Both the position numbers and the translations under genes were made by a program. A stretch of 32,514 nucleotides of DNA from Marinilabiliaceae bacterium. GTDB lineage: Bacteria > Bacteroidota > Bacteroidia > Bacteroidales > Marinilabiliaceae. This document shows, in pieces, positions 32,365 through 32,514 of this stretch; position 1 is the stretch's first letter; every line of letters starts with the position of its first letter. The DNA is taken from NCBI GenBank assembly GCA_021443545.1, contig JABUTU010000065.1, positions 1-32,514 of the forward strand, in the 5' to 3' direction. The notes beneath the pieces were generated by a model. It was not told the DNA's origin, ran no database searches, and worked only from the letters and a program-made list of their open reading frames with translations.

Positions 32365-32395
32365 TGTGATTTTCAAAAAATAATTTCTACCTTCG
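32365..32395 (+). promoter_or_regulatory. Putative promoter of the repeat-containing ORF
   Basis: TACCTTCG at 32388-32395 is a near match to TAnnTTTG (the same TTCG variant occurs at 5372). TGTG at 32365-32368 lies 19 bases upstream as a weak -33 element. The ATG at 32415 follows 19 bases after the -7 box. No terminator separates this from amt. Confidence 0.45.
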
Positions 32396-32414
32396 TCATT
32401 GTTAATCCAACTCA

Positions 32415-32514
32415 ATGAACGAAAGATACGAAATACTACAAAATATTTTTGGAGGATTGATGAATATTGATAATCAATCAATCAATCAATCAATCAATCA
32501 ATCAATCAATCAAT
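32415..32514 (+). CDS. Partial ORF with N-terminal tetranucleotide-repeat-encoded QSIN tract
   Basis: The frame from ATG 32415 reads MNERYEILQN, then IFGGLMNIDN, then Q-S-I-N repeated to the window edge, open for 33 codons. A second in-frame ATG lies at 32460, immediately before the tract. The repeat has no stop in any frame, so the reading frame after it depends on the copy number. The same design, CAAT repeats encoding SINQ near the N-terminus, is established in the phase-variable lic genes of Haemophilus influenzae. The product of this gene is beyond the window and cannot be named. It could also be a non-coding microsatellite with a chance frame. Confidence 0.55.
   Translation, partial: MNERYEILQNIFGGLMNIDNQSINQSINQSINQ
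32472..32514 (+). repeat. (AATC)n tetranucleotide microsatellite, at least 10.75 copies
   Basis: Perfect uninterrupted AATC (equivalently CAAT) repeats run from 32472 to the last base of the window, 43 bases with no imperfection. The true length is unknown because the window ends inside it. Perfect tracts of this length are highly prone to slipped-strand mispairing. Confidence 0.97.

Follow-up and report, generated by a model that had tools for sequence, protein, structure and literature searches.

An AATC repeat tract entered by a leader reading frame in a Marinilabiliaceae bacterium: a probable slipped-strand contingency gene

Results and Discussion

The window (the whole stretch of DNA analysed, 32,514 nucleotides, contig C31 of a Marinilabiliaceae genome bin) ends in a perfect AATC tract that is entered by a short leader reading frame, and this end is probably the 5′ part of a contingency gene switched by slipped-strand changes in a simple sequence repeat (SSR). 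From the anatomy that was read in the sequence we infer that the tract slips and is translated, that the gene switches and what kind of product the window gene has. The genome consists of 104 contigs and is 88.28% complete, and the SSR survey covered 162 stretches, or 2,119,703 of its 2,847,700 bases.

Repeat tract and leader frame in the window

The 3′ end of the window is a perfect (AATC)10.75 tract (32472-32514; period 4, 10.8 copies and 100% matches in Tandem Repeats Finder) that extends up to the final base of contig C31. All window features given here lie on the forward strand. The tract is 43 nt long, compared with 17, 15, and 15 nt for the longest period-4 tracts in three third-order Markov simulations, each as long as the fetched genome DNA, so the repeat that an earlier note on this DNA had reported at the contig end is real. 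An ATG at 32415 and 18 more codons precede the tract. Translation of this leader frame (MNERYEILQNIFGGLMNIDNQSINQ..., 32415-32514, with its 3′ end past the contig) remained open as far as the contig end, which confirmed the start codon and open codons described in that note, and the remaining two frames have stops immediately 5′ of the tract. The open frame reads the tract as (N-Q-S-I)n, and the period-4 unit is not a multiple of three. A second in-frame ATG at 32460, preceded by GGAGG and situated 4 codons 5′ of the tract (32460-32471), may be an alternative start. The upstream neighbor is an ammonium transporter gene (30996-32354; PF00909, E 6e-109), which lies outside the proposed switch.

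Since the contig stops within the tract, the product is out of view, as the earlier note had stated. DNA search, pattern search, contig-end overlap and similarity to the C65 flank described below all failed to find in the genome bin a sequence that continues the window contig; besides C65 itself, the last of these gave no match better than E 0.52. The pattern of leader plus tract had no matches in genomic-contig and viral-contig collections, from which records of this genome were possibly excluded, and neither plasmid records nor PADLOC gave a match. The claim of a frameshift contingency locus draws its support mainly from a sister locus outside the window.

The promoter-like box reported ahead of the leader did not fare as well. 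The box, TACCTTCG (32388-32395), is present, but it matches the -7 box of the Bacteroidales (consensus TAnnTTTG) only weakly. When the 120 bases ahead of the ATG were shuffled 2000 times, 377 of the shuffles scored at least as well. The box is therefore no better than chance, and any firm claim of a promoter in the window was dropped. A sigma-70 scan of 32200-32514 detected two sites, compared with 1.2 (sd 0.9) in shuffles. Promoter-like scores at other repeat loci of the genome were matched by 13 (C92), 52 (C65), and 790 (C10) of 2000 shuffles.

A sister locus on contig C65

A second AATC tract, (AATC)9.75 (39 nt, C65:3555-3593), is interior to its contig and has unique DNA on either side. 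Searched across the whole genome, the pattern (AATC)5 was detected on C31 and C65 only. The 70-base leaders of the two tracts align (32407-32458 in the window) with a score that was equalled by two of 2000 shuffles and by none of 1022 real AT-rich windows compared against either leader; the likeness suggested by this alignment is modest. At both loci, translation showed that one frame only is open into the tract. Downstream of the C65 tract, two frames end at once or within about six codons, and the third is open for 2061 codons, tract included. This long frame encodes a signal peptide followed by an SpvB/FG-GAP/RHS-repeat protein of about 2,000 residues.

From the stop at 3552, just ahead of the tract, to an ATG at 3651, the long frame lacks ATG, GTG, TTG, and CTG codons. 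That ATG falls within the hydrophobic stretch of the signal peptide, and basic residues are encoded upstream of it. With no start codon 5′ of its signal peptide, the long frame should yield a full-length product only by read-through of the tract. The absence of an upstream start in frame, the position of ATG 3651 inside the signal peptide and the starts of four related genes, near which no SSR of at least 14 nt lies, make the tract appear intragenic, with the leader ATG at 3509 supplying the start. At the assembled length the leader is not in phase with the long frame, and the full-length protein is thus a prediction; one of the three copy-number classes would connect the two. An alternative frame of the C65 leader (L021 3506-3554) reads WKITTKYFWEDFLI-stop, which by eye recalls the WKIIKN-stop tail of a T9SS protein that precedes the RHS gene in locus L029. 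The C65 leader could be the leftover of such a T9SS-type gene end.

The C65 RHS protein and its relatives

The C65 protein has matches to the RHS_repeat, FG-GAP, SpvB and Rhs_assc_core domains and is 34-35% identical to four proteins from the genus. Four loci from the genus match named database records exactly, two from one horse-feces metagenome-assembled genome (MAG), one from a yak-rumen MAG and one from isolate SIG108. The four related proteins each have a signal peptide at the start; the first methionine directly opens it in three, and nine residues come before it in the fourth. None of the four has an SSR of at least 14 nt near its start. A wider set was drawn from the best 80 of 122 RHS relatives, of which 67 were examined (the final 13 of the list were left out), and in 63 of them the match started no later than residue 37 of the query. 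The C65 protein shares its domains with these Bacteroidales RHS/YD-repeat proteins with SpvB and FG-GAP; it differs in its tract, as a perfect tetranucleotide tract (15 nt) or pentanucleotide tract (17 nt) was present in none of the 67 between 600 bases upstream and 150 downstream of the match start.

The C-terminal 302 residues of the C65 protein had no PDB match. Pfam gave only a sub-threshold eCIS_core match (E 0.071) in the C-terminal part, covering by eye a GHELIH motif that is presumably zinc-peptidase-like. Small proteins with one YD-like segment were seen by eye 3′ of the C65 RHS gene (L021 10511-10945) and 5′ of the RHS gene in relatives L027 and L029. The small C65 protein that follows the RHS gene carries a T9SS sorting tail.

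Other repeat tracts in the genome

Tetranucleotide tracts of at least 15 nt were rare, with only three in the surveyed 2.12 Mb (the window tract, the C65 tract and an AGCA tract on C10). The last of these, AGCA11.25 (L230, C10:20001-40000, 641-685), lies within a short leader ORF; the BACON protein gene downstream is of the secreted type and has its own ATG. A hairpin was seen by eye between the C10 tract and the BACON gene, and in one frame the leader ORF would cross this hairpin and end about 11 bases 5′ of the BACON gene ATG. The arrangement could be a coupled or attenuator-like switch.

Two pentanucleotide tracts belong to one unit class. On C92 (L119), a TACATTTG box, an ATG and an open 24-codon leader are followed by (ACAAT)5.6 (6187-6214), which runs up to the contig end. 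By eye, this tract can also be entered from a second open frame that has an ATG, which makes two open frames here. Shuffles scored as high as the alignments of the C92 leader with the two AATC leaders in 921 and 530 of 2000 cases, and the idea that C92 is a copy of the AATC-locus leader was dropped on these counts. The upstream neighbor on C92 resembles, by eye, a glutamine synthetase. On C75 (L162, 4754-4790), TTGTA7.4 precedes a gene that has its own ATG and encodes a secreted-type protein, for which sub-threshold Lcl_C and Fib_succ_major matches were obtained.

The genome holds further tracts outside coding frames. Long homopolymers were observed at or near contig ends: T20 at the start of C15 (L106 35-54), upstream by eye of a secreted-type protein, T17 at the end of C20 (L233 584-600) and C14 at the start of C65 (L021 12-25). 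The end of C33 (L245 446-494) contains a GGGATT8.2 array, around which repeated AGACGCACGGCCGTGCGTCT-like elements form an island. Tandem units of 7 and 8 bases, of types TCGTTAT, TATTACGG, CGAAATAT, and TCGGAATA, were seen in clusters on C28 (L179 183-293 and 6634-6886) and in L132 and L138.

AATC tracts among related genomes

Tracts of the AATC type are rare across the order, and the reversed motif is just as frequent: five of 393 order genomes have (AATC)7, whatever its phase, and five likewise have a reversed control pattern. Among 15 genus genomes, (AATC)6 was detected in one, that of the window. The window's genome was also the only one of 71 family genomes with (AATC)6 preceded by a non-C base, a pattern that covers one of the four start phases. 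The ACAAT tract was detected in two of the 71 family genomes, the window's and G062, and in the latter it lies at a contig end, where the DNA shows no clear leader.

Five AATC tracts were read in four other genomes (one each from G107, G159, and G207 and two of several from G367), and every frame stops within about 65 codons of the tract. In G107, which belongs to another family, the AATC10 tract ends 19 bases ahead of a transporter ATG. These tracts were weighed as possible parallels and dropped. The closing of frames after the tracts in these genomes means that a tract by itself is no proof of function.

Contig ends and assembly

Perfect SSRs of at least 14 nt were more frequent at contig ends than elsewhere, being present at five of 208 ends (one end was 44 bases short) compared with 109 of 34675 background 60-mers. 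The commonest contig-end overlap was exactly 59 bases (eight pairs), and the assembler word length is therefore probably 59. The last 59 bases of the window comprise 16 of leader and 43 of tract; given these 16 leader bases, the contig breaks earlier than it would if a repeat exceeding the word length had collapsed. No partner contig was detected for the window end by end overlap. The break at the tract is suggestive of branching by length variants, and a dead end would fit too. In G107, two contigs have by eye a 55-base overlap in common through AATC10 (L066/L082: C47 end, C83 start), and they stop where continuation of the tract and exit from it would diverge, as length variants would give.

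Comparison with known systems

The window tract is closest in unit and position to the CAAT genes of Haemophilus influenzae (lic and related), since CAAT is a rotation of AATC and those tracts also lie near the start. In the part of the four-genome Haemophilus study that deals with tetranucleotide tracts, all but two adjoin the start or lie just downstream of it, and a change in tract length leads to the wrong frame and an early stop (PMC2651432). The same part of that study describes the CAAT-encoded peptide as hydrophilic and one CAAT-headed gene as having homologs without the tract in other strains (PMC2651432). In a Histophilus somni culture, length variants were measured for five tetranucleotide tracts, one of them a 154-bp AATC tract (PMC6889271). 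The analogy with the Haemophilus lic loci drawn in the earlier note holds for the repeat unit and its position; the target at C65 is an RHS/SpvB protein and not a lipopolysaccharide enzyme. H. influenzae also belongs to a different phylum. Filing the window locus as lic was dropped.

The Bacteroidales are known for phase variation by promoter inversion. The invertible promoters of Bacteroides, in the same order as the window host, would produce the same expected on/off heterogeneity of surface structures; they use recombinases, whereas the mechanism proposed for the window needs none. Invertible promoters have flanking inverted repeats. In the last 315 bases of the window, which cover the upstream side of the locus, a sole inverted pair (12 nt, 92%) was detected, with one arm within the transporter gene. 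No flanking inverted pair was detected in C65:3260-3760, and a terminator-like hairpin and an 11-nt inverted pair lie upstream of the C65 leader. Slippage has been suggested at a polysaccharide locus of Bacteroides fragilis (PMC3090145).

Proposed switch and alternative explanations

Translation would begin at ATG 32415 (or 32460) and run into the AATC tract, and slipped-strand mispairing during replication would add or remove 4-base units. Of the three copy-number classes, one would put the leader in frame with a downstream coding sequence and the other two would lead to an early stop. By analogy with the C65 locus, the window gene probably encodes a large protein that is secreted or displayed on the surface, and cells with and without it would coexist.

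The same tract could instead be part of an untranslated 5′ leader or of a short upstream ORF, where its length would tune expression of a gene with its own start through spacing, mRNA structure or coupling. Such arrangements have counterparts in the short leader ORF with AGCA11.25 ahead of the BACON gene on C10, in the ACAAT-class tract upstream of the secreted-type protein on C75 and in the G107 tract that ends shortly before a transporter ATG, and an internal ATG is present at C65:3651. However, that ATG is the sole downstream start at C65 and would cut off the charged part of the signal peptide, and the long frame is stop-free back across the entire tract. We consider tuning of this kind unlikely, although not strikingly so.

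It is improbable that the tract is a neutral microsatellite, in which slippage happened to enlarge a short seed and the leader ORF is there by coincidence. The equal frequency of (AATC)7 and its reversed control in the order, the tracts in four other genomes that enter no long frames and the further noncoding tracts of this genome are what such an origin would give; the similar leaders at two loci of one genome, the continuity of the C65 tract with a 2061-codon frame and the scarcity of tetranucleotide tracts in the surveyed DNA argue against it. Lengthening of the repeat by the assembler or by sequencing stutter is very improbable. The window tract does reach the last base of a contig for which no partner was found, but unique leader sequence precedes it, and the C65 tract lies inside a contig between stretches of unique DNA.

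Beyond the single gene, it is conceivable, although less likely than not, that the genome carries a small multi-locus phasome of tetra- and pentanucleotide tracts. A duplicated cassette of leader plus AATC tract would have replaced the native start of at least two secreted-type proteins (the C65 RHS protein and the window product), the C92, C75, and C10 tracts would have arisen separately at other secreted-protein genes, and slippage would act beside or instead of promoter inversion.

Implications for the Bacteroidales

Mrazek et al. have reportedly surveyed long SSRs. No SSR- or slippage-switched locus in Bacteroides, Bacteroidetes, or Bacteroidales was present among the literature matches listed, which are mostly at the level of title and abstract, and a precedent in a subscription journal is possible. 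The relevant part of a recent review presents as a major question why genomes rich in phase-variable loci seem confined to pathogens, with database bias as a possible cause, and the Bacteroides mechanisms that it describes there are inversions (PMC11868660). If the contingency-gene reading is true, several SSR-headed genes in one uncultured member of the Bacteroidales would bear both on this restriction to pathogens and on the inversion-only picture. An RHS protein would become a phase-variable target, and a member of the Bacteroidales with relatives in the herbivore gut would use slippage in the style of Haemophilus.
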